In this document: piece after piece, positions 19,310 through 58,778 of the stretch
Position numbering within the stretch: position 1 is the stretch's first letter
Layout of the letters: the number at the start of each line of letters is the position of its first letter
Source of the DNA: Gautieria morchelliformis
Lineage: Eukaryota > Basidiomycota > Agaricomycetes > Gomphales > Gomphaceae
Assembly: GCA_015179125.1 (NCBI GenBank)
Contig: WHVA01000208.1
Location: 62,001-126,000 of the forward strand
Length of the DNA stretch: 64,000 bases
Direction: 5' to 3'
Notes under the pieces: model-generated
Told to the model about the DNA's origin: nothing
Database searches by the model: none
What the model saw: only the letters and a program-made list of their open reading frames with translations
Program-made: the position numbers and the translations under genes

Positions 19310-21455
19310 TGTCACGACCGGTTTATTTGTCCTACCATGCTACCTCTATGTTCCCCCTCGTCATTCCCTAGCATCTTTGCCAGAGTTCGCCGCACCTACC
19401 GACCACTTCCCCTCTACGTCCACCCTACCCACTGTTCGCCCCATTCTCCGAACTGCTATTTGCTGCTCGCGCATTTCGTCAGCAGGCACGCCATCAAATA
19501 TGATCGATACCATTCACCTGGCATGATGGTTCATCATTAACCCCATCATCTTCTTAATCCAACCCCATTGGGTGTTCGTATGGCCAAAGTGTGATCGCGG
19601 GACATCTCTCCCATAGGCCGTGCGGGATCAACCCAGTAACAAAGAGCCCATGCAGGGTAGCATGTATGCGGGTCCCAAGACATGGTTTTGTCCATAAGTG
19701 CCTTCGCTCCCTTTATTCTCCATCGTTTCATGTTTGCATTCTCCTCTCACTCTATTGTATGTTTATTCCATCTACCTAGTATCATGATTGTGCACCCCTA
19801 TCCAACCCTGACTCACAGCGGCCTCTTTCCTATTCGCTGATACCTTACAAGCATTCGATATAAGTAGTTCACATTCGCATGTATATTCCCCAGTTCAATT
19901 ATCATACGTTGTTCATCTTGTGCAAATTTGACCTCGCTGTGATCATCGTCTTCAGCCTTCTCTTGGAGATTTCTATCTTCGGCCAGCAGAGGACTTAGGC
20001 ATCACTGGTGAGTTCTCATACTTCATCTTCATTACCTTATCCTTTGAACCATTTTCTGTGCTGTTGGCGAAGGGCTCAGAAGGAGCACCTTCACCGGCGA
20101 AGGGATTGTCGAAACTTAGACAGACCTTTCCTGAGACCTTGCACGTTACATCGTCAAGTGCCACGGGCTATTTCGCTACGACTGTAGATAGGGCGAGCCC
20201 CGTTCGGGCAACCCTCTTACCTTGTGAACATTCATTGGTTCATCTATTCGCCGAACGGCATACCTGTCTGCACAAGTTATTCGGGCATTCGCTGTGTTCA
20301 CTAATACACGATATTAACACCTAAAAACCAATCTTGACATTTGCGTCCTGTCAAAAATTCATGTGGGGAGATATTTGAGGTAACGCGAGATGGGGCTCGG
20401 TTTCGAACATATACCGCAGCACCCTGTCAAGATTGGTTTTTAGGCGTTAATATCGTGTATTAGTGAACACAGCGAATGCCCAAATAACTTGTGTGAACAG
20501 GTATGCCGTTCGGCGAATAGATGAACCAATGAATGTTCACAAGGTAAGAGGGTTGCCCGAACGGGGCTCGCCCTATCTACAGTCGTAGCAAAATAGCCCG
20601 TGGCACTTGACGATGTAACGTGCAAGGTCTCAGGAAAGGTCTGTCTAAGTTTCGACAATCCCTTCGCCGGTGAAGGTGCTCCTTCGGAGCCCTTCGCCAA
20701 CAGCACAGAAAATGGTTCAAAGGCTAAGGTAACGAAGATGAAGTATGAGAACTCACCAGTGATGCCTAAGTCCTCTGCTAGTTGAAGATGGAAGTCTCCA
20801 AGAGAAGGCTTAAGACGATGACCACAGCGAGGTCAAATTTGCACAAGATGAACGACGTATGATAATTGAACTGGGGAATATACATGCAAATGTGAACTAC
20901 TTATATCGAATGCTCGTAAGGTATCAGCGAATAGGAAAGAGGCCGTTGTGAGTCAGGGTTGGATAGGGGTGCGCAGTCATGATACTAAGTAGATGGAATA
21001 AACATACAATAGAGTGAGGGGAGAGTGCGAACATGAAACGACGGAGAGTAAAGGGAGCGAAGGCACTTATGGACAAAACCATGTCTTGGGACCCGCATAC
21101 ATGCTACCCTGCACGGGCTCTTTGTTTACTGGGTTGATCCCACACGGCCTATGGAAGGGACGTCCCGCGATCACATTTTGGCCATACGAACACCCAATGG
21201 GGTTGGATTAAGAAGATGATGGGGTTAATGATGAACCACCATGCCGGGTGAATGGTATCGATCATATTTGATAGCGTGCCTGCTGATGAAATGCGTGAGC
21301 AGCGAATAGCGGTTCGGAGAATGGGGCGAACAGCAGGTAGAGTGGACGCAGAGGGGGAGTGGTCGGTGGGTGCGGCGAACTCTGGCGAAGATGCTAGGGA
21401 GTGATGAGGGGGAACATAGAGGTAGCACGGTAGGAGAAATAAACCGGTCATGACA
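19310..21455. mobile_element. Inverted pair of ~1030-bp LTRs, probably gypsy type, fossil
   Basis: The left arm 19310-20339 starts TGTCACGACC and ends CTTGACA. The right arm 20425-21455 is its inverted copy. Each arm therefore has TG..CA ends like a complete LTR, and only 85 bases lie between them. There is no clear target duplication, and part of the host copia element is missing at the site. A TATAAG core lies near 19860. Gypsy affiliation is inferred from the TGTCACGACC start common in mushroom gypsy LTRs. It is a rearranged remnant without any coding part. It is absent from copy B, where the host copia element survives only as a solo LTR. Confidence 0.75.
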
Positions 21456-23945: not shown

Positions 23946-23962
23946 AACTTTGGTGACAATTA

Positions 23963-24416
23963 CAGCTGTTCCGGGTACATAAGGTGGAGTCTGAATTTTG
24001 ACTCCGTGACAGCCGTTCAGAAAGAAACATGTATACCTCGATAACTAGTAGATAATAAGACCTGATATTTTGTAATAACTATATATGATATAGTATCTAC
24101 CATTTAGTACAAAATATATAGCTTATTATGCAGATTCTAATATTCGAAAAAATAGGCTTATATGCACCATTATGATATCAATATAGCATAAGCAGAGGAT
24201 GTAGCATTCTCAGACTAGAGTAATATACATGTATAAATGTTTGAAAACTAATGGAATTGTATACTGAATGGTTTAGGGAAGGAGAGGGCTGCATACTAAT
24301 TGAGCACCTTTCCAGCCTTTTAGCTGTCTACAAGGCCATAAATGCTGATTGTAACACTCTAAACTATTGTATATAACGTATATTTACAATAATTACATGT
24401 AACGTATTTTTTCAGG
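23963..24416. repeat. Left terminal inverted repeat of the copy-A Tc1 element
   Basis: Inverted match to 31103-31351 plus 34345-34550. The repeat is AT-rich apart from its outermost 50 bases. Confidence 0.9.
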
Positions 24417-24489
24417 CTTTCCTTGACTTCATAAACCTGCTGGCGGCCATGCTGCACTTGTGACATCACGCGATGTAGCGCAATTAGGT

Positions 24490-24495
24490 CACGTG
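24490..24495. promoter_or_regulatory. CACGTG box upstream of the cargo gene
   Basis: The palindrome GGTCACGTGACC lies about 115 bases before the ATG at 24608. CACGTG is the binding site of bHLH regulators of the Cbf1/Pho4/USF type. Confidence 0.5.
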
Positions 24496-24607
24496 ACCGC
24501 ACGAAGCCTCGTGCTGCAATGTGGCCTTGCCGCCTTCCTCTTACTTCCTGTTTTCCCCACCCATCGTTTCTCTGCTCAGCTTCTATCAGACCACATTTTT
24601 CTGTCTA

Positions 24608-26440
24608 ATGGCCCGTCAAAAGGGCAAAGTAACCACCAAACCACCTGGGGAGCCGCCTCCCAGCAAACCGAAAACCCGTGAGCGGGACATGGTAGATCCC
24701 TCACACATAGTTGAGTGACATCGATCCAGGACCCCTTCCAGTCGTTTACTCCAGTCAAGTGACGCAAAACCGGTCTCCAAGCCAGCGACCGGCTCAGAGA
24801 CAGCGAGGATACCATCTAAGCCCCCTCCAGTTCGTCCCTCTACTGCTCCCAAGGCCACGACCCCTGCTCCCAAGGCTGCGACCACTGCTCCCAAGGCCAC
24901 GACCACTGCTCCCAAGGCCACGACCCCTGCTCCCAAGGCCATGACCGCTGCCCCTGCCCCCACCCCCGCCGCGACCACGACCGCTGCCCCTGTCCCTGCC
25001 CCTGCCCCTGCCCCTGCCCCTGCCCCTGCCCCTGCCCCTGCCCCTGCCCCCGCCCCTGGCCCTGTTACTACTGCGGCGCTCAGTACGATTCTAGAGGAAC
25101 AGGAGTCCCAAATCGAAACTGATGCGGACAACGAGAATCTTTACGTGGACCACCCCTCAGTGAGCAGCGACAAAGATCTATTTTCAGGTCTCGAACCCTT
25201 GGACGTCGAACTCCTGGCTCCATCTGACCAGTCATCAAAGGCTAGAGTGGCAAGAAAGGTTGGCAAAGGAGCAAGCAAGGCAGCAGTTGCCTTGCCTCAC
25301 AGTATGTTTCTTATTCTCACTTTTTTTCTGCACACTAACAATTTATATACAGCTATTAAGTTTAGTATCCCCTCCCGTTTCGGACTCAAACAGCTCATAT
25401 GGTGTACACACCATGTCGAGCCAACAACGACCATAGCCGACCTGAAGGAGACCATTCACCTCATCCTCGGCCTGGATGTGATACCAGCCGTGAAGCGCCC
25501 TCCCCTTGTTACGCATATCAAACACGATCCGGCCAAGCTTTGTTTCGCTCTCGACACTGACAATGACTGGGAGGCCCTTAAGGACGAATGGAGGAAACGG
25601 GCAGCAAAACGGGGTGAAGATACCTGCATTGAGATTGTAACTGGTCCTAAAGTAAGTTTTTATTTTCTTTTGTCCTTATACAGCTAAATTTTTGATAGTC
25701 TTTTGACTTCCTGGAGGAGGCCGTTGCGGCACACGCTGCATCCTCTAAAGGAAAGGCCAAGGGCAAGGCCAAGCCTGCCGTTAACCCCTTTCTTCCAGAC
25801 GACGCAGCCATTGAGTCTGAGTCGGTGGCAAAGCTAGGTGCAGCTGATATGGCCAGGTCAGCGTGATTCCAGGAGGAACTCAGGAAGCTCAGGGAAGCCT
25901 GGGCCTGTGACCAGCACCCCAAGTCAATATGTATGGCGCGTGCATTGAGGGGCCACCACAAGGTACTGAACTTCGAGGGCGAACTTTCCTGGGTATTAGA
26001 GCTCGTAAGGTTTTCTCTGATCTCTTTTTTATTTCATGCGCTAACATTTTAATAGATAGGTGGTACAAGCGGCGTGGACATCAACACCCCTCCCAAGATT
26101 GAGTATTTCAAGTTCTTCCACACCCAAGATGGCAGCAGTGCCCCAGTCCTTCGTCGAGGTGGCGCGCGGCATTATAGCGAGCCACCCACTAGCATGCATC
26201 GTGACACTGCTCCTCCTGTTATGCCTGCCGTTCCCCCATCCACATCAATTTCCCTGCCGACATCTTTCAGCATCTACAGGCGTCTCACCACTCTCGTCCC
26301 AAACGGGGCCGCTCCCCATCACCCAGTGATCGTGTGGCAAGTCCGGACAACAATGCACCAGTGGACAACTCGCCTACCCCCACCATCGGGGAGTGGATCA
26401 CACACTTGGAGATACAGCGCCTCGCGTACAAGAGGTGGGA
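24608..26440 (+). pseudogene. Pro/Ala-rich cargo protein gene, copy A, inactivated
   Basis: This is the counterpart of the intact gene at 55106-56904, with the same four exons. It begins [18 protein letters not shown]. Copy A has a TGA after DPSHIVE at 24715-24717, another TGA at 25864-25866 where B has CGA (a CpG transition), and one C fewer in the C-run near 26235, which shifts the last exon. The Pro/Ala tract is longer here: GCTCCCAAGGCCACGACC-type 18-mers occur about five times and the CCTGCC run is about twelve units. Function unknown. Confidence 0.6.
24840..25062. repeat. 18-mer and CCTGCC minisatellite coding Pro/Ala
   Basis: Tandem 18-base units (24840-24945) are followed by hexamers (24950-25062). 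The counterpart in copy B (55340-55470) is shorter, so the tract has changed length since the duplication. Confidence 0.8.
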
Positions 26441-26868
26441 TTTTCTGTGTTTGTGCTGCAGAGGAGGCAGTTTCCCATGTGTGTGGCATTTGCAATGACC
26501 ATCAACAAGTCTCAGGGACAGTCTTTGGGTACGGTTGGGCTGGACCTGAGATATCCAGTGTTTGGACATGGTCAGTTGTATGTTGGTGTTTCAAGGGGAA
26601 CAAGCTGGAACAAAGTGAAGGTCTTGCTTGAGGAGGGTTTGAACACAACCAACATTGTATATAAAGATGTATTACTTAGAGCTCCTTGATTTCTGATATC
26701 TACTTGATGCAAATTGATTACTTTGGTTTTCCCCAATGCACTTGACCTTACTGATATGTTAGACTTACTGATGCGTTAGACTTACTGATGCATTAGACTT
26801 ACTGATGCATTTGACCTTACCGAGGCGTTTGACCTACACCCCCATGTGAAGCGCGGGTATCCACCTAG
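26440..26868 (+). mobile_element. Helitron 3' end with helicase C-terminus (copy A)
   Basis: A frame ending at 26689 reads [20 protein letters not shown] and then [15 protein letters not shown], the C-terminal motifs of Helitron Pif1-type helicase. It is followed by tandem TTACTGATGCRTTAGAC-type repeats and then the terminal hairpin CCCATGTGAAGCGCGGG and CTAG before a T. That is the canonical Helitron 3' terminus. The 5' end was not found. Either a Helitron captured the cargo gene and lies inside the Tc1 element, or a 3' fragment was picked up by the gene. Confidence 0.82.
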
Positions 26869-26996
26869 TCCTCTATATGAAAGTAGCTTGGTGGGTTGTG
26901 GGCATTGAGCTTATGTCAGGTTTTAGGTCAGCCTTAGTCAGCTGGCCAATCGGACGCAAGCGGTGCAGCTGCAAGCTACAAATGCTGTGCAGCGGT

Positions 26997-27002
26997 CACG
27001 TG
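26997..27002. promoter_or_regulatory. CACGTG box upstream of the 60-codon ORF
   Basis: The palindrome GGTCACGTGACCGG is followed by a TATAAAGG box at 27064-27071 and the ATG at 27137. The spacing of box, TATA and ATG is the same in copy B. Confidence 0.5.
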
Positions 27003-27136
27003 ACCGGTTCGCGACCATCGCGCGCATATGCGACCGTGGTCCATGCACGATGCGCGCGTGCAGTATAAAGGCCGAACGGTAAGGATGGAACGCCAGGAAC
27101 CTGCATAACTGACAGAAGTTTGCCGAGGAAGAGTCA

Positions 27137-27319
27137 ATGGATATGCTCATTAGCAGCCTCACGAGACTATCACTTGCGAACTTGAAGGTTGGGTATAGTC
27201 TCAAGATGGTTGATGCAGTGTTAATCTTGGAACAGCTTGAAGTGGTGGGGAAGCGGTATGGTTTTGCGGTAGGTGCTCAGGATGATGACAGGCAGAGGTC
27301 CAAGAAAGCCAGATATTAG
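27137..27319 (+). CDS. Conserved 60-residue ORF of the Tc1 element (copy A)
   Basis: The product begins MDMLISSLTRLSLANLKVGY and ends with a basic QRSKKARY tail. It is hydrophilic, has no membrane segment, and its charged C-terminus could bind nucleic acid or act as a nuclear signal; that is inference. The frame is open in both element copies and differs at two residues. A TATA box lies 70 bases upstream. It may be a full small gene or the first exon of a longer one. No family recognised. Confidence 0.4.
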   Translation: MDMLISSLTRLSLANLKVGYSLKMVDAVLILEQLEVVGKRYGFAVGAQDDDRQRSKKARY

Positions 27320-27446
27320 ATGTTTTGGTGATACATTTTGATACAGCACAAACCTGTGACTTGGTATTTAGATGAAAATATCAGTTGGGGCTTTCAGGGA
27401 ATGAGTGTGATGATGTGCACCTTGGTACATGATATATGCATGAAAA

Positions 27447-27552
27447 GAAATAATAATAATGATAATAAAAATAATAAAAATAAATAAAAATAATAAAAAT
27501 AAATAAAAATAATAAAAATAAATAAAAATAATAAAAATAAATAAAAATAAAA
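27447..27552. repeat. AT-rich microsatellite (AATAATAAAAATAA units)
   Basis: About 105 bases of A/T-only repeats. The tract is about 45 bases in copy B (57863-57907), so it is length-variable. Confidence 0.9.
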
Positions 27553-27898
27553 AGCTGCGTCTGTCAGCGTTCGGCATCAGCCACATGACTAAGTTGACGA
27601 GGAAACAGTGTTCATCAGTGGAAAGGATCTCCTAAAGCTTTCACTTTTGGAGCAGTGTAGAGTATCAAGTAATAGTAGTAAAAGTGTTGCAAGCTAAGTC
27701 ATACAGTGATAAAATAGCATATATGCAGGCACTTGGCAAGGAGTTCACCGTCTCTGTGCCGGTCTCCTGAGACAGCCAATTGGTATGTTCATCCAGGGAG
27801 CTATTATCAGGATTCCCAGATAGAGTCTGAAGAAATCATTATCCCTGGTGGTCTTGTAGGATTATGGATAAAACAGCGGTTGGTTATGGAGTTGCTCA

Positions 27899-28426
27899 TA
27901 GGGCTCCACACCGTGCCGTACAACCACGGCTGTATGGTGCCATATTATGGCCACGGCACCTGTATCGTCAAGGGTCGGTGTGTGCTGCCAACGGTATGGT
28001 ATATGGTATGCAATGGGAAAACCCCGAAAACCTTGTAGCCGAGCCCAAAAATACATCCGCCGATGGGCGCTACTGCTGGTAGGCAGGCCAGATTTACGTG
28101 GCGCTCATGCTCCTATTCACCCCCTGCTGACATTCCGCCACGCGTGCACACACCGTAGCGAGCAGCTGGGTGTGATATTATCAATATAGTTTTGCTGCCG
28201 GTCGCATGCAGTAAGGAATTCTCATAACTGCTCTAAGTTTAGGCCAAGCTATAATATATCAGCCATATGAATCTGTCAACCATAATACGGACGGTACCGT
28301 ACCTGTACCATACATACCGTCAGAGGGGTGAGGTGTTGATCTATGGACAGTATACAGTCTGCCGTATCTGTCAACTTGCTGCACATTATACGGCCATAGC
28401 TGTAATACGGACGGTGTGCAGCCCTA
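27899..28426. mobile_element. hAT-type MITE, 528 bp (copy A)
   Basis: The ends TAGGGCTCCACACCGT and ACGGTGTGCAGCCCTA are inverted repeats with one mismatch. They are flanked by the 8-bp target duplication GTTGCTCA (27891-27898 and 28427-28434). No coding capacity is seen. It lies inside the Tc1 element and is present at the same site in copy B, so it is older than the duplication. Confidence 0.85.
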
Positions 28427-28689
28427 GTTGCTCATGGCCTTCATCTTTGCAAATTCACATGATCCCTCTTTGACAAAATCATTGAAGCCTCCGGCAAGCA
28501 TGACTTTGGCTTTACTGCTAAGTATGCAATGTCAAGGGATTGCAGAGCCATTACACTGAATATATTTCAATGATATGTGCACCAGACTTCAAACCCAACA
28601 TTGTGTTCTGCATGACGGGTGCCTAAATTATGTTCCTAGGCAATCCCATTGCCTGACAGGTGCTTATATAAATGGCCGGAGCCAAGTAC

Positions 28690-29631
28690 ATGCAAGTGAA
28701 ACAGGCCCATGCGCAGCCTCCCCTCCGCAGTGTTGACTATCACTGAGGAGGTGAGTTTATTAGTGTATCTTCGTAAAATAGGTAGCTTTCCCTTATATTA
28801 CTAGTGTTGATTATAGAACACTAAATAGTCTCCTGAAGGTTCCATCCATTGAACTACTGGTCTATAATATTCCACTGTGTCCATACCGAGTTACTACATG
28901 AATATACTGAATATATCCATATATACAAGAACATACCAAGCACCAATGGGAATCTTGATAGGACCTGCAGGCGAAAGCAGAAGCATATTACCTCGCTACA
29001 GTATTGATAAAGCCGTCCCATAAGCATCAGTATGCATTGATCAAAGGCTAGCATAAGAGCACAGATGTCTCCTGTAGTATATACCCTTCTGTACTTCAAG
29101 CTCCTCCCTACAATATTTGAACATGGTGGCAATGCTAGCCATTCCTCTCATACCACCAATACTGGACACAACTTCAGAGGGATGAACATATTTGTACAGC
29201 TTATATGGGTCAGTGATCCTGGACATAATCAGTACATATTACATGTATGGGTGGTTTCTGCCTTTTTTGGATGAACAGGTTGTGTTGTCTTCCTTGTGTC
29301 AGGTGATTTGTGTACCACAGCATGTGGTGTTGGCATATTTTCTGCTTTTGTCAACAGTCTTACTGCCACACCTTCATCACCTCATGTGGGTGGCTTTACC
29401 ATGTGGCTGCTCCTCGTGGTGGCATACTTAGCCATACCAGCAGCACCTAGGTGCATTACCAGCAATGCAGACACCTCAGCTCTGGTCTGGGGGGCTGGAG
29501 GCTATGTGGGGGCCGTGAGGCCCATGTTGGTATGTTGTCTTCATGAACATACTGTTCTGAGAGCAGAAGTGGCCAGATGGGAAGCAAAAGCAGAACTGGA
29601 GAGGAGGGCATCCCCTGATAATCCTTGCTGA
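28690..29631 (+). CDS. Possible multi-exon membrane protein of the Tc1 element (copy A)
   Basis: A TATATAAATGG box at about 28674 precedes an ATG that opens MRSLPSAVLTITEE and then a GTGAGT donor. Further on, frames carry hydrophobic stretches and the longest (to the stop at 29631) reads GGFTMWLLLVVAYLAIPAAP and ends LRAEVARWEAKAELERRASP. This suggests a small membrane protein with a coiled C-terminus. I could not fix all exon borders. Both copies keep the last frame open; in copy B a Helitron-like element splits it. No family recognised. Confidence 0.3.
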
Positions 29632-29773
29632 TCTATCCTAGCACAAATACTGAGCTGACAAACACACTATTCATTGCACCATCACATAAAGCATCATATA
29701 ACAAGTATGCTGTACAGTTACACATTATAACAACAAATATTGTCACAATGTTTCTACAGCAGGATACTTATTT

Positions 29774-30998
29774 CTACAAATACCTTGAATGTGTCATCCA
29801 GCCCTCGCAATGCTCTGCAGTAATGGTGCCAAGGGCACTGTGAAAGAACAATAGTACAGAACCTTGGTCTTTAGCATCAACCGCCTGCCGAAAGGTATCC
29901 CCATGACACCTGAGGTAAGATTTCAGATATGAAAAGGCTTCTTCAATTGGGTTGAGGTCCAGTGAATAAGGCGGCAAGTAGTATAGCCGTACACCACTGT
30001 TAAAATGCTTAGCCTCCATTGAAACATAAAAAACAACAGTAAATGACTTACCACTCCTGGCAAATTTCTGAGACTTCTGCTGCATGGTGAATAGCGCAAT
30101 TGTCCATGACAAGCACACTGCAGCACTCAGGCCATGGGTTCATATGAGGCATGAGGTTGGTGATGAACTGGATAAACGAGGCTGAATCATAAGCCCCTTC
30201 CCGCACATCCGAGTATATTATACCCTCTGCACTAAGGGCCGGTAAGAGAGAATACCTATATAATCCAAATGAATCAACAGTAGATGCACAAAGGAATATA
30301 CACTCACCCAGTACCTCATACAAACTTAGCTTTCACTGAAGCTCTCTTTCCCTTGGGAGCCCATCCATTCAGACGATATGTGGTGCGACAATCAATACGG
30401 CTCTCGTCGATAAACACAAGATGCTCCAGGGACTCATGACCAATTTTGAAACCAAATAGAGTGCGCAAATTTTCATTGCGCTCGGCGGCGACCTTGGACA
30501 GCTGTGGAAAGCATGAGTAGACTAGAAGAGGGCGAAGCATTAGAACATACCTTTTTGCGGGTGAGACCAAGGTCTGTCATTGTGTCCCATAAGGTGCTGA
30601 TTCCAACTGTTATCCCATACAGGCGCTGCATGATTGTTTGTATCTCGTCCAAGTATAGGTCAGGGAACTGCTCTGTAAGCCGAAGAAGAAACTACAGTAA
30701 TATACAAAGTGAGAAAATATGATCATCTTCACTCTGTAGTGGAAATGCTTACCTCCATTTCCTCTGGAGTCATAATCTTCCTTCTATTTCCCGTCTTTCC
30801 ATGTCCCTGCATAACTACCTCACCAGTAGTACGCCACAATTGGAGGATGTGCTCAACAACACATTTTGACATGTTCAGATCAAGTGCGATGTCATCGATC
30901 TTCTTCTCCCGCGTGAACCGTTGGTAAATTACACGCTTCCGGAGGTCTTCAGAGTACGTTTGACACTCCCTTTGGTGTTCATGCAGGTAGCGAGGCAT
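29774..30998 (-). pseudogene. Tc1-type DD34E transposase, copy A, one nonsense codon
   Basis: The transposase cuts the element out and pastes it at TA. Five exons fit: 30753-30998, 30551-30691, 30308-30501, 30052-30255 and 29774-29996. An N-terminal helix-turn-helix (RKRVIYQRFTREKKIDDIAL) is followed by the DDE domain. The catalytic residues are the D of FIDESRI, the D of VMDNCAIHH and the second E of NPIEEAF, with 34 residues between the last two, the DD34E spacing of Tc1. Copy A has TGA where copy B has CGA, in KFVRGTG near 30326, a CpG transition. The last exon ends HSRYL and stop. A cluster of CACGTG boxes lies just upstream. Confidence 0.85.
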
Positions 30999-31024
30999 CC
31001 AGTACAAGTACAAGTATGTAATAT

Positions 31025-31048
31025 CACGTGAGCGTCACGTGTCACGTG
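31025..31048. promoter_or_regulatory. Triple CACGTG cluster upstream of the transposase
   Basis: Three CACGTG motifs lie at 31025-31030, 31036-31041 and 31043-31048, about 30-50 bases before the transposase ATG at 30998. The cluster is conserved in copy B (62607-62630). Confidence 0.55.
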
Positions 31049-32099
31049 ATGTGTTACGCGTCAAAGAGAATAGTGTGTGCAGAGATAGGAAGTCCAGGTA
31101 GCCCTGAAAAAATACATTACATGTAATTATTGTAAATATATGTTATATACAATAGTTTAGAGTGTTACAATCAGCATTTATGGCCTTGTAGAAAGCTAAA
31201 AGGCTGGAAAGGTGCTCAATTAGTATGCAGCCTTCCCCCTTCCCTAAACCATTCAGTATACAATTCCATTAGTTTTAAAACATTTATACATGTATATTAC
31301 TCTAGTCTGAGAATGCTACATCCTCTGCTTATGCTATATTGGTATCATAATTAGTGTTGCCGCCAGCTTGGCTCGGCTCTGGCTAAGCCGCGCGCCAAGC
31401 TGCATATTAGCTCAGCCAAGCCGATTCCTAGGAGCCGGCTTATCTCCATGGCGGTTACCATTTAAGCTGGCGTTAAGCCAGCTAAGTCAGTGTGTAGCCG
31501 ATTATGTTATCCTCACCCCTGTGTTCCTCCAACCTCGTCGCACTTCTTACAGTCCCTTACAACCACTCTCCTTATAGTCTCCTACTGCTGGAGCAGACCA
31601 TTGGGAACCTTGACAAACATTTCCGGGTCCATGGAGCATGGACATCTAGGTAAGTCGCTGGAGTAGCGGGCACTGGTGGTGGCGCCATTTCACATGTGAC
31701 AGGTTAACGGGTTGTCAACAGATTTATTCGAGCCTGTTCTAACGGGTACGATACAATTCTATCATCAAGTTATCGCCCTAAAGTGCCAGCCGAATGCTAT
31801 AAACACGTACGATATACCGGTAAGTTTCCCTTCCCATAAAGTATTCCAGTCACTACTTTGTCTCAGATACCAACAATGGGCCCCAAACTTCGCGATACAA
31901 GGGCTCGGCCACTAAATATGACGAGAGTCAACCAGCTGCTCAATCTACCAGGGAGACGATACACCAGCCATGCGTGTCGCGCAATGCTTACACACTCCTT
32001 TTTGGCCGGGAAATCGACGAGTCACCAACAGGGTGCACTTCGCATTTGCCGTCGGTTGAAGAAGAATGAGATTCGTATTGTCATGCTGCTAACTGGCCT

Positions 32100-32626
32100 G
32101 ACATATACAGCGTTGATCTAATCAAATGGTGGGATGTGCGTAATAACTTAGGCTCCTGTTTGACATTTGACTTCTAACCATAACCACCCTGTAGCACAAC
32201 GAGGGAAACTATCCACGGCTATCTCGTTGGGCACTCGACTATCTCCCAGCACAAGCATCATCTGTCCCTGCCGAGCGCATCTTCTCTTCTAGCGTGGAGA
32301 CGGATATACGTCGAAGAAACCGCATCTCACCGCATCTGATGGAACAGCTGCAGATGCTGAAGTTCATGATCAAGAAGGCCCGGCTAGATTTCACGGCTAG
32401 CTGGAAATGGGAGGAGAAGGACATAGAACGGGAAAATGAGTGGCAAGATCAGGGATACTCAGTATGTGCACACAAGCCTCACAGTGCATTTGATCAACAG
32501 CTGGATATATTGGACAAGGATGGGAATGCGCAGGAAACCGATGGTGAGCCTGGGAAGGACTTGACAGATCTAGAGCTTGAAGAGTTTGTTTTCGAGGGCT
32601 GTGATGAATGGGGGGAGGAATCTTAA
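32100..32626 (+). pseudogene. hAT transposase C-terminal dimerisation domain
   Basis: A KWWD sequence ends at an intron (GTGCGT donor near 32137, acceptor at about 32194) and continues HNEGNYPRLSRWALDYLPAQ, then SSVPAERIFSS and RRRNRISPHLMEQLQMLKFM. This is the hAT C-terminal dimerisation signature. After it comes an acidic tail ending DEWGEES and stop. Upstream frames to 31712 do not show the BED finger or the catalytic domain, so most of the transposase is missing. Confidence 0.75.
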
Positions 32627-33111
32627 GTAGGCTCTGTAATAATCAGCTTCTCATTGCATATATTTTCTATTCCAAAAAATCTCCCAGAGACTGACCAGCG
32701 CGAGATTATCGGAGCCTGAACAATGAACACTGTTGGCTCTTGACCACCACCGCCTGCACTCTTCACTCCTGCACACCTCACTCCTGCACACCACCGCCTG
32801 CACTCTTCTCTTCACTTGTGTTACCACGTTCGCTTGATCTTTATGCACTGTAGTCCGATTTCCATCTATGCTGGTAGGGTCGTTGGGCGAGGAGTTCAAG
32901 TCTCTCATCAGGCCATACCGCCTGAATGGCCTCATTAAGGGTATCCCTTCTCTTTTTGTTGATGTCCGTGCTCTTTATGTGGGCAACGAGAAGTGAAACT
33001 TAGTGAAGAAACATTCAGGGAGAAGAGCGAAAAGGGTAAAGTATCGATGGTATGTCTTGTCTATTTTGATGTAAAATTCCCTCTCGTACTCATTCTAGAG
33101 AACAATTGGCT

Positions 33112-33486
33112 CGATCCTGCTCTCATTCTTCCTATCGAAGTCATACCCAGCCCCTCATCTTCAAACGACCCACCCGATCCCGCTCTCATTCTTCCCATCG
33201 AAGTCATACCCAGCCCCTCATCATTGAACAGCCCACTCGACCCGCTCTCATCCCATCGAACTCATACCCAGCCCCTCATCTTCGAACAACCCACCCGATC
33301 CTGCTCTCGTTCTTCTCATCGAAGTCATACCCAGCCCCTCATCTTCAAATGACCCACCCAATCCCGCTCTCGTTCTTCCCATCGAAGTCATACCCAGCCC
33401 CTCATCATTGAACAGCCCACTCGACCCGCTCTCATCCCATCGAACTCATACCCAGCCCCTCATGTTCAAACGACCCACCCGATCCC
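33112..33486. repeat. Minisatellite within the hAT element
   Basis: Units of about 55-63 bases built on CATACCCAGCCCCTCATC repeat six times, with two unit types alternating in a higher-order pattern. The three-unit block of about 180 bases occurs nearly twice. Confidence 0.85.
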
Positions 33487-34552
33487 TTGAATGATGTGCC
33501 CGCGGAGGGAGCTAGGATGTACACGAAGACAATTCACGGCGCTTGGTACATTGTATGTTCCAGTTCTCAAGAATCGAATACTTGACATCGCTTGCAGGAG
33601 GGAAGAAAATTCTGCGGGCTCTCCAAACTTCGGCGGGTATCACCAGAATCCATCTATCAAAATGGCTGTCCCGACTCCTATGCATATCATGTACGTTCGT
33701 GAAACTGTGCCAGGGATCGAGATACTTATTGCAATATACAGGGTTCGCATGCAACTATCGCATGCATCACCCACCCCATCCCGCTCTCGTTCTTCCTATC
33801 GTCGTTCTCCCTCGCGGCCATTTGGAAGCAATCTCGCTACCGGTAAGTGATGGCTTTCACCTTGAGGATATACTAAATTGGGGGCCCGGGCAATATTTTA
33901 ATTGTTGCAGATGACCTCCTTAAGAATAATGTAACTCCAAATGTATACCGCAATGAGCTCGACATATACAGCTGTGAAATACGGTACGGTAACAGCGACG
34001 ATGACAGCGACCTTCCTTTTCACGGGCAGCGTTGTCCTCGCGAAATGAATCACTAATAAACGGAAGGTTATATTACTAATGTTAGTTCAATAATTGGTAC
34101 AGATACGGTGCTCTAGCCAAACCACCATACTGAGAGATTATCATGACCGAAGGTTTAGAACATCGATAAATAATGTATTAATAATCCGGTATCTCCCATT
34201 AGCTATATTCGGCTTCCGGCTAAAAGCCGGCTTTTAACCAAGCCAAGCTGCGGTTCCTCGGCTTGGCTTAGAGATAATAGCCGGCTTTGGTAAGCGTGGC
34301 TCGGCGCTAAGCCAAAGCCGCGCCGCGGCAACACTAATCATAATGGTGCATATAAGCCTATTTTTTCGAATATTAGAATCTGCATAATAAGCTATATATC
34401 TTGTACTAAATGGTAGATACTATATCATATATAGTTATTACAAAATATCAGGTCTTATTATCCACTAGTTATCGAGGTATACATGTTTCTTTCTGAACGG
34501 CTGTCACGGAGTCAAAATTCAGACTCCACCTTATGTACCCGGAACAGCTGTA

Positions 34553-35109: not shown

Positions 35110-36344
35110 TCAATAGAAAGGTAAAGTCGCTACCCATCCCGTTGAATATTGGGCACTGGACCGGAAACAACAGGAAAACAAAAGAATGTACTCTTTCGGT
35201 ACTCCAACAGCCCCCTCTGGGTTCAAATCTAGGACAACAACGCGGCCTGTGTGACGTCCCAAACAGACTTCGGAGTCAAAGAAACAATGAGCGGAGATAG
35301 TGCGGTACTCTGGAGCAATCAAGCAAGCAGCGGGCATGGGGAATTCACCAAGTAGCTACATGTAATCTCGAGAGAGTCGCAAGCGTGGGTCTAACGTGAA
35401 CGTTGCCAGTAGATGTGCGATATCGCGGTGGGGTCCGAAGAAACGCGTCCGAAGAAACGCGAAGTCTGCATGTCAAGACGCCTGTCACAATGTCCCGGAC
35501 TGAAATCTTGTCTCTCGTGCTCCTGGACACGACACCTTCGGGCCGAAATGCGACGAGTGCTACAGGATTACCATGTCCCTTCAGTACATGCACTGACTCC
35601 CCAGTGGCCACGTTCCAGACTCGAACATTCATATCGTCCGATCCAGATGCAATGAGGCCGCCATCAAGCGAGAATGCGATGCAAGACACCCGGAGTCTAT
35701 GACCTTCCAACACGTGCTCTGACACCCCAGTGGTCGCGTCCCAGACTCGAACAGTCCTGTCCTCCGATCCAGACGCAAGAATGCGACCAACGACACCGGG
35801 CTTTCATTACATACTCTGACTCTTCAGTCACCGTGCTCCATATTCGAACTTGCTTTCCTCCGACCCAGACACAACGCGATTGCCGTCGGGCGAAAACGTG
35901 ACAGAGGATACCAATTCCGAATGACCATCTGGCGCATGATCTGACTCCCCAGCAGCGATGTGCCAGACTCGAACTGTCTTGTCCTGCGCTCCAGACACAA
36001 CATGCTTGCCATCTGTCGAGAACGCGACTGACGACACCCAGTCGATATGACCCCCAAGCACGTGCTCTGATACCCGCGTCGCTAAGTTCCAGACGCGAAC
36101 CTTCCCGTCCTGCGATCCAGACACAATGTGGCTGCTGTCCGGAGAGAACGCGACGGGCGACGACCAATCTGAATGGCCTTTTAGCACACGCTCAGTCTCC
36201 TCAGTCTCCATGTTCCAGACTCGAACTGCGCTGTCCAAGCATGCGACCGCGACACGGCTGCCGTTGGGCGAGAACGCGAGTTTCCCTATCCCCCCGCGTG
36301 TATGACCGTCCAAATGCCACATCAGGATTGCTTCGGGGAACCTA
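35110..36344 (-). pseudogene. WD40-repeat C-terminal region of a probable NACHT/NLR-type protein, truncated
   Basis: From the duplication join downward, the minus strand encodes seven or so WD40 blades, for example LKGHSDWSSPVAFSPDSSHI followed by VSGSQDGKVRVWNLAT, and later LEGHRLRVSCIAFSLDGGLI followed by ASGSDDMNVRVWNVAT. The end frame, DSEVCLGRHTGRVVVLDL, resembles the closing segment of fungal NACHT-WD40 proteins, in which the repeats act as the sensor. A one-base loss near 35870 changes frame at SEESK, and about 15 codons are missing before VVGRILASGSED. The 5' part is absent because 36345 is the duplication join. NLR identity is inferred from repeat regularity. Confidence 0.65.
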
Positions 36345-43948: not shown

Positions 43949-44603
43949 GAAACTACTAGCCGCTCTCGGCGGGGGTGTGGCCAAAAGAGCGCCACGCCTC
44001 CTCGCAGGGCCTCAACGTGGCCCGAGAGTGAACACCACGGATGACCTCCGAGGTGGCCAACCTGCGAAACACCAAAAAGACACCCACAGGGACCACGAAG
44101 ATAGCCCGCTGGGTAGGGGAAACTTGAACCGTGCCAACATTGCGTGGCCAGCTTTCGGGGGACTCACAGAACGAGACTTTGTAGGGACAGTATAAAGAGC
44201 CCGTAGAAGTCACCATAAATGCAAGGCCTCGGCTGGTAGGTGCTGGGAGGTCAAAGTGGAGACACACCGTACTACCCCAGCAAAACCAAGAGCGGAAAAT
44301 AAAGAAAAATATACAATTGACCTAACAAGTCAAGAAACGTGAGTTGTACATGCTGACAAGATCAGACAATTCGAGTGAGGGACTTGATCACGGCAAGAAA
44401 CAACCTAAGAAAAGAATACTGTAAATAGTAGACACGAAATGAAATAAACAGATTTCTTCACTAGCCGGGGGGGCCTGTTATTCTTTAAGTGTTCGCACAA
44501 AGACATTTTAAAGATAACAGAAGAAGAGATCAGAAAATATGGACAAACTAGACGTGAGTGTTCCCCAACACCACAAAGAAATGAAACTGATAAAAGGGTA
44601 TAG

Positions 44604-45893
44604 ATGCACACCTCGAAAGGTAGAAAGCGCCCAAGTTCGGACGTGGAAATCTTAGAGGCACAGACACCTAAACGCCCCAAAACTGACGGCCCCAAAAAGC
44701 CCCGGCCCAAAAAATCTAGCTCAAGCATTGTGACAACTCCTAGCTCCATCACAGACATGGACTTAGAATCCAACGTCACCACAACACAAAACACCCCCCT
44801 GCCTCTACAGAAGAAGCAGCGACCCGCCATCCAGGCTTCAGCCTTGGACTGGCTAGACGAGCCAATGTTGCGCCCCCCCGAGAATAAAGGGAAGGGCCAC
44901 GCCAAAGAAACACCCAACGGCTGGGAAGCACACGTCCCAGCAGACGTCATCGCAGACTATCACTTCAGTCCGGATGGGATATACGAACACCTGGGCAGGA
45001 TAATGATGATGAACAAAGAACGAGGCGATAGACTGTGGGAGATGTCTCACAGACTTTGCCTGGCCACAGTATACGGCGCCAAAACCCTGGGACCCCTAGC
45101 CGAAAGGAAAGGGATAACAGGCAAAATAAAGAGGGTGGTTACGGAGCTTCTGGCCGAGGAACGGCCGGACGTAGTTGCCCAAGAGGGCGACCCGGTCTCG
45201 GTGGAGGAGCTCAATGTGCTGGCCCACTTCTCCAAAGGTGGAGTGTATAAAAACCCGAGAGGGAATAAAAGACCCGGAGAGGCAGAAAGAACCTCGAGGG
45301 TATGGGCACTGGTGACCTTGCCGGAAGCGGTGCCCGTAAGTTATAACATGTTTGAATACAGATCCTTCCGTGTACGAGGGGAATACCCCAGGGAGGCGGT
45401 CTTGTTGGTCCCCTTTCCATGGGAGCAACAAGCAGAGCAGTGGTTCAGAATAGGAAGAGCCCCTGCGACGACCAGAGAGACGGATGTCCGTCAAGCAATA
45501 GAAGACAATGTTGGCTCACGGCAAGCAGAAGTCCCGAGTGTCCAAAAATCTGCAGACAAAGGTGGCCAAATAGTCTGGAACGTCAGACTAACCTTTAAAA
45601 GGAAACTGGTCACGATGGACGACGGCAGCAAAGATTCCGTCGTCGACACATTAGGGAAGTCGGACAGATTGTGGAAAGTAGGACAGGAAGAATGGCTGAT
45701 TTGGCCAGGAACCCACTGCACCGGCTGCCATGGAGTTGGACACGTAGAAATCAAGTGCCCCCTCCGACCATACATAGCGCCTCTAGATGGGCGGACGAAC
45801 GACCCGCTCCCCAAAGAAGCGGATGACTGGCTGATTGAGGTCTACCTCAAAGCCAACCCGCGACAAAAAGTATACCCGAAGAAGAAGAAGTAG
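44604..45893 (+). CDS. LINE ORF1, gag-like RNA-binding protein
   Basis: 429 residues, uninterrupted. The N-terminus is basic and Ser/Thr/Pro-rich (KRPKTDGPKKPRPKKSSSS). A central domain includes IYEHLGRIMMMNKERGDRLW. A single CCHC knuckle, CTGCHGVGHVEIKC, sits at about residues 372-385, and the end is PKKKK. Such ORF1 proteins coat the LINE RNA and are needed for target-primed reverse transcription. The first ATG at 44604 is preceded by 640 bases of 5' region. Confidence 0.85.
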   Translation: MHTSKGRKRPSSDVEILEAQTPKRPKTDGPKKPRPKKSSSSIVTTPSSITDMDLESNVTTTQNTPLPLQKKQRPAIQASALDWLDEPMLRPPENKGKGHAKETPNGWEAHVPADVIADYHFSPDGIYEHLGRIMMMNKERGDRLWEMSHRLCLATVYGAKTLGPLAERKGITGKIKRVVTELLAEERPDVVAQEGDPVSVEELNVLAHFSKGGVYKNPRGNKRPGEAERTSRVWALVTLPEAVPVSYNMFEYRSFRVRGEYPREAVLLVPFPWEQQAEQWFRIGRAPATTRETDVRQAIEDNVGSRQAEVPSVQKSADKGGQIVWNVRLTFKRKLVTMDDGSKDSVVDTLGKSDRLWKVGQEEWLIWPGTHCTGCHGVGHVEIKCPLRPYIAPLDGRTNDPLPKEADDWLIEVYLKANPRQKVYPKKKK

Positions 45894-46153
45894 GGTGAAA
45901 AGTATAATAATGTTACGAGACGAACAATAATAATCTCTTGTATAACTCTCAAAACCACACTGTGTGAACTAAGTCCTGAAAGAAGAAATCAAGACAAGAA
46001 ATCAAGACGGGAACGCAATAACCCGACACCAATCACCAGCACATAAGTCAACAACGCTGAAATCAATAACAAGAACTACAACAGGGACAACAAGACGCCC
46101 GCAACAACAAGAATACCCAAAGAGACGATCAAGCGTCTCACCGGGACCAAAAT

Positions 46154-49100
46154 ATGACGGCGTCAATTGACGCCACAGATGTCCGAGGCCCAAGTAGAGC
46201 GGGAGGCCTGCATCTCGACCTTGGACGTCTCGCTCGCCGCAAGGCAACCCTGCTGTCGTTTAAGCCTCCACGGCAGCGAAGCTTGACACATGGCCTGGCA
46301 CGTCACGAAGATAGCTATAAAATAACAACCGCCACTAACTCAATTACAAATGAAATTATAAAACACACTTTGGTTGCTTGTACCGGTCATGGCTCTGAAT
46401 TATCTGGCTCTTCACTCTCGAAAGCCCCACCTGGCTCCCTCGGTGGGCAATTTAGGGTGGCGTCAAATCAGACGGGAGGTCCTTCATCCGAGCAATCGGA
46501 TAAGCCACCCCTCAGTTCTGAGACAGAAGGACCGACTGTCAACAAAATAAGTGTAAACTCAGCCCTAAGAAATAAAGGCCTGATAAAATGTAAGAGTGAC
46601 GAGCAAAAGCAAGGTCACTCGAAAAAACACGACTTGAGGGCGAAACCGCGAAAGAGCGGCGCCCGCTCGGCAGACCCGACCCCGCAAAGGGAAGGGGCTG
46701 GCAAAGAAAAAAACAAGGGGTTGAGACAACGACAACTGGAAGACTACTTCCAGATAAGAAACACAACCACCACGCAAAGTACCCAGCCTCCGACGCAAGG
46801 AGAGCTGGATGAGGAAGAAAGACGGGAGCAAAACCTCCCCGCACACAACCAGACAAGCGAACGACCCACCCAGCCTCCGATGCAAGGAGAGCCGGGCGGG
46901 GAAGAAAGACGGGAACAAAACCCCCCCGCACATAACCAGATAAACGAACAGCCCGAAGAAAACCCCTTCCTAGAGCTGCACGTCGAAGACCTGATAACGT
47001 CTGAAGAAGAGGACAGAGCAGGCGAGGACGGCCACGCACGGCTGAAACAAAAAATGAAAGACTGACAAACTAAAGTCAGTAAGAAAAGAGGTATAACCAT
47101 CGCCTCTTGGAATACAAAAGGAAGAAACGATAGTAACCACAAATCAAAGTGGAATGCAATTGCAAGAATAATGAGGCTAAAGGGAATCGCAGTGTTGGCG
47201 GTCCAAGAAGCCAGAATGAAAACAAACGAGGCAGAAGAAGCGTCGAGAGCAAACCCAGGAATACTGTTTCTAGTGAATGGAGAGCACTCCAACAAGCTAG
47301 GGACGTTGTTCACCATTAACCTGGCGAAGATAAACGCCGAAGAGGCACAGGTCATTATCGACCATAGACAACTGGTGCTGAATAGAGCCCAGATACTAAA
47401 ACTGAAATGGGGAGACAACCAACAGCTAAACCTGTTGAACGTCTACGCCCCGAACGACACTGAAGAAAAAATAGACTTCTTTGAAACTATAAAGAGGTAT
47501 CTGAATAAGAACAAGAAAGAGGCAATCTGCCTGTTGGGAGACTTCAACTGCGTCAAAAGAGACATAGACAGGAGCCCGGCCCACAAAGACAGAGAAAGAG
47601 TCACCGAAGCCCTTAAAGGGGCGACGAAAACAAGAAAACTAAAAGACGTATGGAGGCTATTAAACGAAAGCGAGCTCGCCTTCACGTTTACACAAAAAGG
47701 GTCAAGCTCGCTGGCCAGAATAGACAGAATATATATGACAGACGACATGGCGGAACTGACATACAACGCCACGATAGAGTCAAACTTCAACCTAAGCGAT
47801 CACAGCCTGATTACGGCAAAAATAATGGCCGACAATCTCCCGTACAGCGGAGAGGGCATGTGGAAACTAGACGAACAGACGCTAAACGCAAAGGACTTTC
47901 AAAAGAGAGTCGAAAAGCTGCTAGTGAAAAACAACACCTGGGTCAAAAAGTACCTAGAGGGAGAAGCGAACGCCAAAGGAGACAAAGAAAAGATAAAGCT
48001 CCTCCGCAACAACGGGAACAACCCACAGGCAAAGTGGAAAGTCCTGAACAGAGAAGTAAAAAGAATAACAATCGACGTGCAAAAGCGCGAAAAAAAGAAG
48101 AAAGAAGCCATGAAAAAGAGCTTCAAGAAGACATAAAGAAGGAGCTGGAAAAGGCCCAAAACCCGCACCTAACACATGGGGAACGAAGAAAAGCGACGGA
48201 AGAGGCTCTCTTCCTAAAAGAAAAAGTTAATAAAACAGAGGCCGAAAACATAGAAAAGGCCAGAAAGTTCGCAGAAGCCAGGTTCCTGAAAAAAGGAGAG
48301 TCAAACACAAAATACTGGTTCGGACTGAACAAACCAAAGCTGCCGCCCAACACAATGTTAGCAACTCGGGGCTATGGCAGGGAAGGTTCGGTAGAGTTCT
48401 TAGAAAGCTAGAATCAAATACACTCTCTCAGTGAATTTATTGTCGCTGATATATTAATACAGTACCTAGAATCAAATACACTACATGATTTTCAGTCAAC
48501 ATGCTATGTAAATATGAAAGATACTACTCGCCTCTCTCAGTGAATTTATTGTCACTGAGAGAGGAGTACAATCCTGTCTCAGAAGGCATATACGTGCACC
48601 CGGCCCTTTAGCGCCCAAGAGCTCGCGCGTCGAAGTCATTTCAAACTCTGCTGGGTGCAGCCGCCTGTGAAAATAGAAATAACAAAGTGGAATGGAGAGA
48701 TAGGGAGTGACTGGAAAATTTCGAAAATAAGCAGAGAAATGGATGCATGGTACAAGGACAATGTGAGAAACAATTGGAAACACCACACAATAAATTGAAC
48801 ATATTATGCTTGATTTTGGTGCAGGAGCATAAATGCACCCAACACACAATCCTGGGCCTGCAGGACGAAGAAGGAAAAATAACAAACTCCACAAGAGAAA
48901 TGACGGAGATAGCCTCCCGATACCACGGAAGACTACAAAAGAAACATACGGGCAATGGGCAGAAACGCCCCGACATAACAAAGTTGCTAAAAGCCGTCTT
49001 CAACGATGTCGAAAGACACGGAATGGAAGAAGACGAATACTCCAAGGGGATAATGTACCTCTTGTACAAGAAAAAAGACAAACAAGAATAGAAAATTACA

Positions 49101-52100
49101 GACCAGTGACACTACTGGAAACAGACTACAAAGTCCATACAAAAGTAATGGCAAACAGGCTCGGGGAAGTGGCGGGAGACCTGATCCACGCGGATCAGGC
49201 AGGCTTCATCCCGGGGAGAAACCTGTACGACCACGCACGTCTGGCGGAAATAATGCCAGCGTACGCAGAAAGTGAACTGGAAGAGGGGCTGATCCTAAGC
49301 CTCGACCAGGAAAAAGCCTACGACAAGATTGACCACGAGTACATGTGGATCATACTGAGAAAGTTCGGATTCCCCGAACACTTCATAAACCTAGTAAAAA
49401 CCCTATACGGGAAAGCAGCAACAGCGGTGATGGTAAACGGAGTAATACCAACGACCGTAGAAATAAGGCGAGGAGCAAGACAAGGAGACCCCATGTCATG
49501 CATCCTATACAACCTGTCAATAGAACCCCTAGCGTGCGCGCTAAGAAAGTCAAAGAAGCTGAAAGGCTACTCGACGCAGGGGATAAGAAAACTCATAGCC
49601 AAACTGTTCACAGACGATGCGATAATATACATGAAAGCTACTGACAGCTACAAAAGTGTAATGAAAACGGTACACTTGTTTGAAGTCGCCTCCACGGCGA
49701 TCTTCAACCTAGATAAAACAGAAGCGCTTCCGATAGGAAGCGAAGACTTCAGAAACAAAGTCATAACTACGAGAATGGTGGGAGATGAAAGACTGCCCGA
49801 CCACGTAAAAATCAAAAAAGACGGTGAACCCATGAGAACCCTCGGGTCATGGGTTGGAAACAAAGTCTCCATAAAAGATAAATGGAAAGACATAATAGAT
49901 AAACAAAAAGCAATAATGAACACATGGGCAAAGAGCCACCCCTCCCTAAGGGGAAAAGAATTAATACTAAAAGCACTGGTCACGTCAAGGAGCTGGTTCC
50001 TAGCAACGGTAAACGGCATGCCCAAAGACGTAGAAAAGAAATGACCAAAACATGAAGAGCTTCCTGTGGGATGGGAACGAAAGAGGGCTGATGGAACTAA
50101 AAGCCGCCACAGCCAGTAGAGAAGACGGAGGCCTCGGCATCCCAGACATAAAAGCGAGGCTCGCCGCAATACACATAATGTGGTTACAAAAGTACCTAGC
50201 CATACCAGAAAAACGCCCAGACTGGGCTTGGATAGCAGACAGACTCATATTCGGAGATATCAACCCCAAAGCAGTCCTGAAGGTAGACACCGAATCGAGG
50301 ATAAGCTGGTTGAAGCAAACGTGGAGGACCAAGCAAGGGTTACACTCCAGCCTGCCGACATCGTTAAAGGAGATGTTAAAGACGGCAGAGGCGTACAACG
50401 TCAGAATACAGGCCAGAAAGACAGATAAAGGCCTTAAAGAAAAAATGACGGTTTGGCACAATGTGGTCAAACCAAACGATAACTACAAGTGGAACAAAAG
50501 ACAGCGAAATGCCTGAGAAAGAACCACGATATAATCTCAATAAAAGACTTACAAAGGGCAAAGAAAGGGGCAATAACCCCCGACAGAAAATGTGAAAACC
50601 ACAACGCCTGCCTGAATATGGCGAAAAACCTATACAAAGGTTACCCAGAAAAATGGGACCCCGAGAAAGGCACCCCCTACACGGATGGGCTAGACCACAC
50701 GACAGGGAGGAAACGAAAATAGAAACGTTTCACGAAAATAGGTGAAAACATAGCAAACCCAGACATAACAGAAAGGGAACACCCAGAGAATGCAACAAGG
50801 ATATTCCTGGACAAAGAGAAAAAAGAGGAATGGCAGGCAAAGCCAACCTATAGAAAGCACCACAGAACAGGAAAGGAATGGGAAGTCTACACGGACGGAT
50901 CATGCCTCGACCCAAACACGGAGTCGGCCAGAACAGGAGCAGGAATATACTGCCAAGATAACGAAATTTACACAAAGGCCATAAGAGTGCCTGGAAAGAA
51001 AGAAACAAACCAAAGGGGAGAACTAGTGGCCATATTGAAAGCCCTAGAAATGATACCAAAAGGAGACCCCCTGAAGATAAAGACCGACTCGACCTACGCA
51101 GCGGCCGGAATAATCGAAGGATTAAACAAATGGGAAGATATGGCTTGGCTCAACATAGACAATGCCGACATCTTCAAAAAAATAAAATATGAATTGACGA
51201 TAAGAGGCGCAGTCACCACCTTTGAATGGGTGAAAGGACACGCTGGTACAAAAGGCAATGAAGAGGCAGATAGACTAGCCTCGGAAGGCGCAAATAAAGC
51301 CGAAGCCGACGAAATAAACCTAGCCGTCCCAGATGAATATGAACTCAAAGGGGCGAGGCTGCAAAGCCTAACTCAGAAACTAGCCTACGAGCTAATAATG
51401 AGAGGAAAAAACATTGATCTGGTAACGAAAACCAGAAGGAGAAAGCTTGCCGAAACAAAGGCAGAGCTACAAGAAACACTGGGCGTAAGCCCAACAGAAA
51501 GGGCAATATGGAAGACGCTAAAGTCGCCCACCATAAGGAGAAACATCGCAGACTTCCTGTGGAAACTGCTGCACGGAAGATTAAGAGTCGGAGTATACTG
51601 GAGAAACATACCCGGCTACGAGGAAAGGGCCAGCTGTAAAAAATGCGGAGGCCTAGAAACAATGGACCACATATGGTTCGAATGCCAGACCCTGGGCCAA
51701 TTGGAGGTCTGGGACGCGGCAGAGACACTCTGGAGAAAGACAACAGAGATAAAAGAAGGGGTAAACGAATGGATACACCCGAACGAACACCTAATAAGAG
51801 GATTAGGAGCCGTAAAGAAGGCAGAACGCTTCTCTTCAACACGAACGCTACAAAAATACAAGGACCTAGTCCTAGAAACAGCGTGGCTTCTATGGAAAAT
51901 AAGGAACGAATCAACAATCAGAGAAAAAACCTTCACAAGAAAAGAAGTGAAGGCAAGATGGGTGGCAGAAATAAACCACCTAATACAAAGGGAGCACTCA
52001 GTGGCCCTGATACGAAAAGATAAACAAAAGAGAAGCCAGGACATAAAGCGCTTCAAGGAAAAATGGGCGTGCACGGACTACGCAGTGACGCTACACAAAG

Positions 52101-54461: not shown

Positions 54462-54915
54462 CAGCTGTTCTGGGTACATAAGGCGGAGTCTGAATTTTGA
54501 CTCCGTGACAGCCGTTCAGAAAGAAACATGTATACCTCGATAACTAGTGGATAATAAGACCTGATATTTTGTAATAACTATATATGATATAGTATCTACC
54601 ATTTAGTACAAGATATATAGCTTATTATGCAGATTCTAATATTCGAAAAAATAGGCTTATATGCACCATTATGATACCAATATAGCATAAGCAGAGGATG
54701 TAGCATTCTCAGACTAGAGTAATATACATGTATAAATGTTTTAAAACTAATGGAATTGTATACTGAATGGTTTAGGGAAGGGGAGGGCTGCATACTAATT
54801 GAGCACCTTTCCAGCCTTTTAGCTGTCTACAAGGCCATAAATGCTGATTGTAACACTCTAAACTATTGTATATAACGTATATTTACAATAATTACATGTA
54901 ACGTATTTTTTCAGG
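54462..54915. repeat. Left terminal inverted repeat of the copy-B Tc1 element
   Basis: 454 bases, an inverted match to 62685-63139. Confidence 0.9.
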
Positions 54916-54988
54916 CTTTCCTTGACTTCATAAACCTGCTGGCGGCCATGCGGCACTTGTGACATCACGCGATGTAGCGCAATTAGGT

Positions 54989-54994
54989 CACGTG
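54989..54994. promoter_or_regulatory. CACGTG box upstream of the intact cargo gene
   Basis: GGTCACGTGACC about 115 bases before the ATG at 55106, at the same distance as in copy A. Confidence 0.5.
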
Positions 54995-58736: not shown

Positions 58737-58778
58737 TAGGATCATGGATAAAACAGCGGTTGGCTATGGAGTTGCTCA

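Follow-up and report, generated by a model that had tools for sequence, protein, structure and literature searches.

Can a Tc1 element grow well beyond its ordinary size, take up further genes and still move as one unit? The question is raised by a stretch of 64,000 nucleotides from the basidiomycete Gautieria morchelliformis (contig WHVA01000208.1, positions 62,001 to 126,000 of the forward strand; hereafter the window), in which a Tc1-type transposon, copy A, occupies positions 23963-34550. A first-pass annotation had described it as an oversized Tc1/DD34E transposon with several cargo genes. Tc1 transposases are considered to work unaided, which is why they serve as gene-transfer tools. Most of the supposed cargo consists of nested insertions. 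What remains is a two-gene element from a long-lived Tc1 lineage that has conserved an additional gene, here called gene 1, whose protein family could be matched to nothing known.

Structure and target site of the element

Copy A is 10,588 bp long including its nested insertions and is bordered by TA at 23961-23962 and 34551-34552. Self-comparison of the window located its left terminal inverted repeat (TIR) at 23963-24433 on the plus strand. The right TIR, on the minus strand, is interrupted: its inner part (31079-31351) pairs with 24169-24440, and its outer part (34345-34550) starts after a nested hAT element and the second copy of the target-site duplication (TSD) of the latter. The left TIR aligns with the two pieces over 217 bp at 99.1% and 266 bp at 95.1% identity, about 475 bp in total, and with the right TIR of a second copy in the window, copy B, over 472 bp at 96.8% identity.

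The transposase gene lies on the minus strand at 29780-31022 and has five exons. Its spliced protein matches Pfam DDE_3 (E 4.7e-26) and, marginally below the cut-off (24.9 bits versus 25, E 1.6e-5), the helix-turn-helix (HTH) family HTH_33 at its N-terminus. The second D and the E are separated by 34 residues, which is the DD34E spacing. One premature stop is found in the transposase of each of the copies A and B, in copy A within exon 3.

To describe the ends more generally, the 122-Mb genome was searched, in which the window is part of contig C236. Hydrophobin genes scoring above the family cut-off accord with a fungal source. At least 41 TIR matches were obtained (40 of 124 candidates scored). 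The terminal motif CAGCTGTT was seen in 27 of the 30 TIR loci examined, and TTA stands outside all 27 ends, which were found with a pattern omitting TTA. Of the remaining three loci, C559 and C428 have lost the tip, and C221 has one changed motif base with TTA outside. Flanks are common only to three pairs of copies (A/B, C219/C770 and C715/C309), and elements with the same ends occupy at most 19 different places in the genome, an upper figure since copies with one end seen are not comparable at the other end. The insertion in C923 lies inside a high-copy repeat. All five paralogous repeats fetched are empty and read ..TTAAGTTC.. (four have CATACATTAAGTTC, one has two other bases before TTA), and the filled site reads CATACATTA[element]TAAGTTC. 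TA is therefore duplicated upon insertion, here in a TTAA context; ordinary Tc1 elements likewise duplicate TA.

Copy A is thus a Tc1-type element with TA ends, TIRs of about 475 bp and a five-exon DD34E transposase. It shares with Tc1/mariner transposons the terminal inverted repeats, the DDE catalytic domain with HTH N-terminus and DD34E-type spacing, and the TA duplication; it departs from a typical single-gene Tc1 (one ORF, that is open reading frame, and 1-2 kb) by its second conserved gene and its size. In these respects the first-pass annotation was accurate: its boundaries are exact to the base, and its Tc1/DD34E assignment, TA duplication and five-exon transposase all hold. The very long TIRs hold as well, being a little longer than the 454 bp it gave.

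A second gene shared by three families

Gene 1 is located on the plus strand at 24608-27319, convergently to the transposase. Its exons, with splice sites picked by eye, span 24608-25301, 25353-25651, 25699-26004 and 26056-26448 joined to 27111-27319, the last one being split by a nested insert with a helicase fragment. This multi-exon gene encodes a protein of about 575-630 amino acids, with a variable first part rich in proline, alanine and lysine, followed by conserved later exons. In copy A, codon 37 of gene 1 is a stop, and many other copies are broken. Because both window copies have a transposase stop as well as a gene 1 split by the helicase insert, A and B are probably dead.

Some premature stops, at window 30316-30318 and in gene-1 exon 4 of C180 and C256, look like CGA to TGA changes and would fit the C-to-T decay expected of silenced copies.

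We asked whether gene 1 accompanies the element elsewhere, as the first-pass annotation had suggested doing for the cargo at independent TA sites with the same boundaries. All nine copies with both ends (A, B, C219, C770, C448, C559, C555, C923 and C180) carry gene-1 and transposase exons, some of them broken. Gene-1 exon sequence is present in 20 of 20 examined loci of the same family (family 1), exon 2 being absent from C923 and some loci being truncated; these loci were picked by TIR or cargo match, which biases the counts. With 40 of the 124 TIR candidates scored, there may be further copies that lack gene 1. Around gene 1 itself, no sign of an insertion was detected.

Two further families display the same organization. 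In family 2 (C195 and C403 fetched), the transposase DNA is about 75% identical to that of family 1, gene 1 has the same place and orientation, and the TIRs of C403 have TTACAGCTGTT ends. In family 3 (C922), the exons of gene 1 are open, the transposase lies convergent to it, and one end reads ..TAGCTGTAA, the left end being outside the fetched part. At the level of exons, gene-1 proteins of family 1 are 46-54% identical to those of families 2 and 3. Between families 2 and 3, exon 2 gives synonymous divergence pS of 0.80 and nonsynonymous pN of 0.165, and therefore gene 1 has been under purifying selection, as would be expected of a working protein. Since distinct families of the lineage have it in common, the term resident accessory gene suits gene 1 better than cargo does.

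In family 3, the 3' end of gene 1 is also duplicated in inverted orientation around an array of 9-bp repeat units (L054:1936-2273 and 3161-3477).

Association of the two genes was then examined in the whole genome. With family-3 exon 2 of gene 1 as query, all 90 candidates were scored, yielding 89 places and, after merging, 79 loci; with family-3 exon 1 of the transposase, 150 of 258 candidates were scored. A transposase place lies within 15 kb of 49 of the 79 gene-1 loci, as compared to about 4% expected by random placement. Pairings within 8 kb are convergent in 43 cases and otherwise oriented in four. Seen from the transposase, convergent gene 1 within 8 kb accompanies 36 of the 66 best-scoring places, 5 of the 14 ranked after them and 2 of the 70 with the lowest scores, one of these last two (C715) probably by coincidence. 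All these proportions are descriptive, because copies of one family are not independent. Convergent pairing within 8 kb extends even to six of the ten homologues of gene 1 that show 27-31% identity. Among paired loci, the identity of gene 1 to family 3 correlates with that of the transposase (rho 0.85 for 42 pairs; 0.76 for 36 pairs with the most distant ones omitted), C715 being left out and the families not being independent.

The C715 region (136500-146499) contains a family-1 fragment; the nearby transposase belongs to an ordinary high-copy Tc1 group and is probably a separate insertion. For a high-copy cousin in C649, no inverted ends were found within the 4.4 kb fetched.

Nested insertions

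The rest of copy A is made up largely of other repeats. The hAT element within the right TIR (31352-34336, plus strand, 2,985 bp) is flanked by the 8-bp TSD ATCATAAT at 31344-31351 and 34337-34344 and matches Pfam Dimer_Tnp_hAT, the hAT dimerisation domain (E 3.2e-9). Within gene 1, an insert of 662 bp (26449-27110, plus strand) encodes a PIF1/Helitron-like helicase C-terminus, with Pfam helicase matches that are weak and below cut-off. It is present in copies A and B and missing from 16 other copies with sequence seen there, in which the gene-1 exon is uninterrupted at this position; among the matches listed, its first 250 bp are found again at ten places with 96-99% identity. A hAT-type miniature inverted-repeat transposable element (MITE) occupies 27899-28426, with TAGGGCT..AGCCCTA ends and the 8-bp TSD GTTGCTCA, and is absent from copy C163. 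Also absent from C163 is a short repeat at about 28579-28897, which is some 90% like a stretch of family 2 apart from gaps.

Part of this repeat, 28686-28898, at first seemed to be a non-coding segment conserved between families 1 and 2. This was rejected, as the stretch is about 90% alike (gaps aside) versus about 75% for the transposase and is missing from C163; nor was it found in the examined part of family 3. We read it as a nested repeat. A 118-amino-acid ORF at 29275-29631 was at first a credible third gene because it is free of stops in most copies, and was likewise rejected. Relatives of it occur at about 15 other places with 41-62% identity. In the one such place opened (C197), the best alignment is in a minus frame, the plus frames being almost as good, and the neighbouring stretch resembles Ty3 RNase H from PDB (E 8e-5); a Pfam search of that 34-residue stretch gave no match. 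The most plausible interpretation of the ORF is the antisense of a Ty3/Gypsy pol fragment at 29373-29554.

Subtraction of the hAT element and one TSD reduces copy A to 7,595 bp, and subtraction of the hAT element, the helicase insert and the MITE reduces it to 6,397 bp (about 6.4 kb). The earlier estimate of about 7.5 kb without nested elements is consequently right if only the hAT element is removed and too high once the two other insertions are taken out. Of the additional transcription units that had been proposed, one, gene 1, stands as a conserved gene, and the other candidates are nested repeats; several cargo genes are thus not present, the rest being the hAT element, the helicase insert, the MITE, the short repeat and the antisense pol fragment. 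Copies lacking the cargo, with insertion signatures of its own, had been named as evidence against a multigene element. Such copies exist for the helicase insert and for the MITE with its own TSD, and were not seen for gene 1 among the copies examined.

Possible roles of gene 1

We consider it probable that these elements form a cut-and-paste Tc1/mariner DD34E family whose unit comprises long TIRs, gene 1 and transposase, with gene 1 as partner of the latter. The two genes face each other, and the unit has moved to many sites, with TA duplicated within TTAA. The gene-1 protein would act jointly with the transposase; its likeliest role is that of a nuclear partner at the long TIRs, one that may bind or bridge the ends, or import or stabilise the transposase. 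Since no domain, family or fold is recognised in gene 1, we infer this function from context. The simplest interpretation is that of a transposase partner, followed by a role against silencing. A stronger proposal is that an old fungal Tc1 clade is a true two-component system, whose second protein founds a new family and is required either to transpose efficiently from very long TIRs or to escape silencing; we consider this somewhat less likely than not.

Several results weigh against our main reading. Gene 1 matched no family in Pfam (two stray matches at E about 0.1 and one at 0.72 were ignored) or NCBIfam and had no meaningful match among PDB sequences. A structure model of one of its exons was poor (pLDDT 62.6), and a fold search with this model retrieved nothing at E ≤ 0.001. 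Within family 1, the selection signal on gene 1 is weak and noisy (of three frames tested for two exons, the correct one was lowest, at 0.56 and 0.70), and in the same substitution test the transposase exons are near 1 and look neutral. Transposase exon 1 was not seen within 15 kb of 30 of the 79 gene-1 loci, and convergent gene-1 exon 2 was not seen within 8 kb of 30 of the 66 best transposase places, a minority of these loci and places having been opened; C923, with exon 2 deleted, and C915, with later exons present, are false negatives among them.

Some observations would suit a passenger, that is, a host gene which an ancestor of the lineage took up and which has since been copied with the element but does not aid transposition: its link to transposition comes from context, it has no recognised domain, many of its copies are broken, and 30 of its 79 loci show no transposase exon 1 within 15 kb. 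A useless passenger would nevertheless decay, whereas gene 1 persists in three families with near-saturated synonymous and much lower nonsynonymous divergence, and most of the distant homologues keep the same geometry; we therefore regard a passenger as unlikely. Somewhat less improbable, yet still doubtful, is that gene 1 protects the element from silencing by the host instead of contributing to the cutting and joining steps. The purifying selection seen is compatible with such a role, and the convergent layout together with the long TIRs could yield double-stranded RNA. The large unit might finally be an artefact of insertions nested in an ordinary Tc1 of 1-2 kb with no real second gene. At least four nested pieces do explain much of the size. 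However, the lack of insertion signatures around gene 1, its exons in every family-1 locus examined (C923 lacking exon 2), its identical place in two other families and its pS and pN all contradict this, and we hold it to be very improbable.

Other leads on gene 1 were discarded. Its best PDB profile match, to protein A repeats (E 1.1e-6), is a sum of five weak repeats of about 37 residues and was discounted because no single repeat is significant alone. PB1-like and SAM-like folds were guessed from sequence pattern and are supported by neither sequence nor fold search. A pattern-limited search of IMG/VR viral contigs and prokaryote genomes revealed no relatives of exon 2. A search for RNA families brought nothing near a curated cut-off.

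Comparison with other transposons

PIF/Harbinger, CACTA and MuDR elements encode a second protein besides their transposase; they belong to different superfamilies, whose transposases and target duplications are unlike those of Tc1 elements. Helitrons are characterised by a RepHel protein and rolling-circle ends, and Starship-type cargo elements by a tyrosine recombinase captain. A Helitron reading was rejected, since only a helicase C-terminus is present, in an insert that other copies lack. TA duplication and a DDE transposase argue against Starship-type membership, no search having been aimed at a captain.

Ordinary Tc1 elements have a single ORF and a mean length of about 1.3 kb (PMC7325037), in contrast to two genes and about 6.4 kb in copy A after removal of three nested elements. 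According to the same source, Minos, a Tc1 element, resembles the present lineage in its DD34E transposase and TIRs of several hundred bp, and Tec elements of Euplotes in their TIRs of about 700 bp, three ORFs and DD34E transposase; Tec carries a site-specific recombinase, whereas Pfam detects no such domain in gene 1. TBE elements of stichotrich ciliates are Tc1/mariner DD34E elements with three ORFs, one of them reversed, all under purifying selection (PMC4724952). They share with this lineage extra conserved ORFs, one in reverse, beside a DD34E transposase, and many copies with stops; they differ in their ciliate host, in TIRs of about 80 bp and in having two extra ORFs, a 22 kD one of unknown nature and a 57 kD zinc finger/kinase (PMC4724952 and PMC7325037). 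Gene 1 matches no Pfam family but might still be related to the extra ORFs of TBE or Tec. Multi-gene Tc1/mariner elements being already known in ciliates, the fungal lineage with its second gene is a variant of this theme. No fungal Tc1 with a second gene came up in searches of the open literature; subscription papers and Repbase, outside this scope, may already catalogue such elements.

That this lineage has kept its second gene despite deep divergence hints that a partner protein is needed by, or benefits, some Tc1 elements. Annotators would in turn be able to label a set of unassigned fungal proteins as products of transposon genes.

Copy B and surroundings of the element

Copy B (54462-63139, 8,678 bp), which the first-pass annotation did not list, retains both ends. 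It has inserts of its own near 58214-58737 and 60184-60892, and its TIR is free of the hAT element. Both flanks are common to A and B: on the left a copia long terminal repeat (LTR), belonging to a full-length copia element beside A and standing as a single LTR beside B, and on the right about 160 bp. A and B hence derive from one insertion, by local duplication or by joining of haplotypes in the assembly.

Window blocks 5260-37541 and 36344-63302 have many segments in common, in the same order and mostly at 95-99% identity, and differ in nested insertions. Either a local tandem duplication of about 27-30 kb took place, or the assembly has joined two haplotypes. Between the two LTRs of the copia element bordering copy A lies a near-palindrome of about 2.1 kb (19310-21455, 92% over its length). 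Repeats of about 126 bp at 35345-36280 give a minus-strand translation that looks WD40-like by eye. At 44001-52000, plus-strand AT skew amounts to 0.34-0.49 over about 8 kb, well above that of other 2-kb bins.

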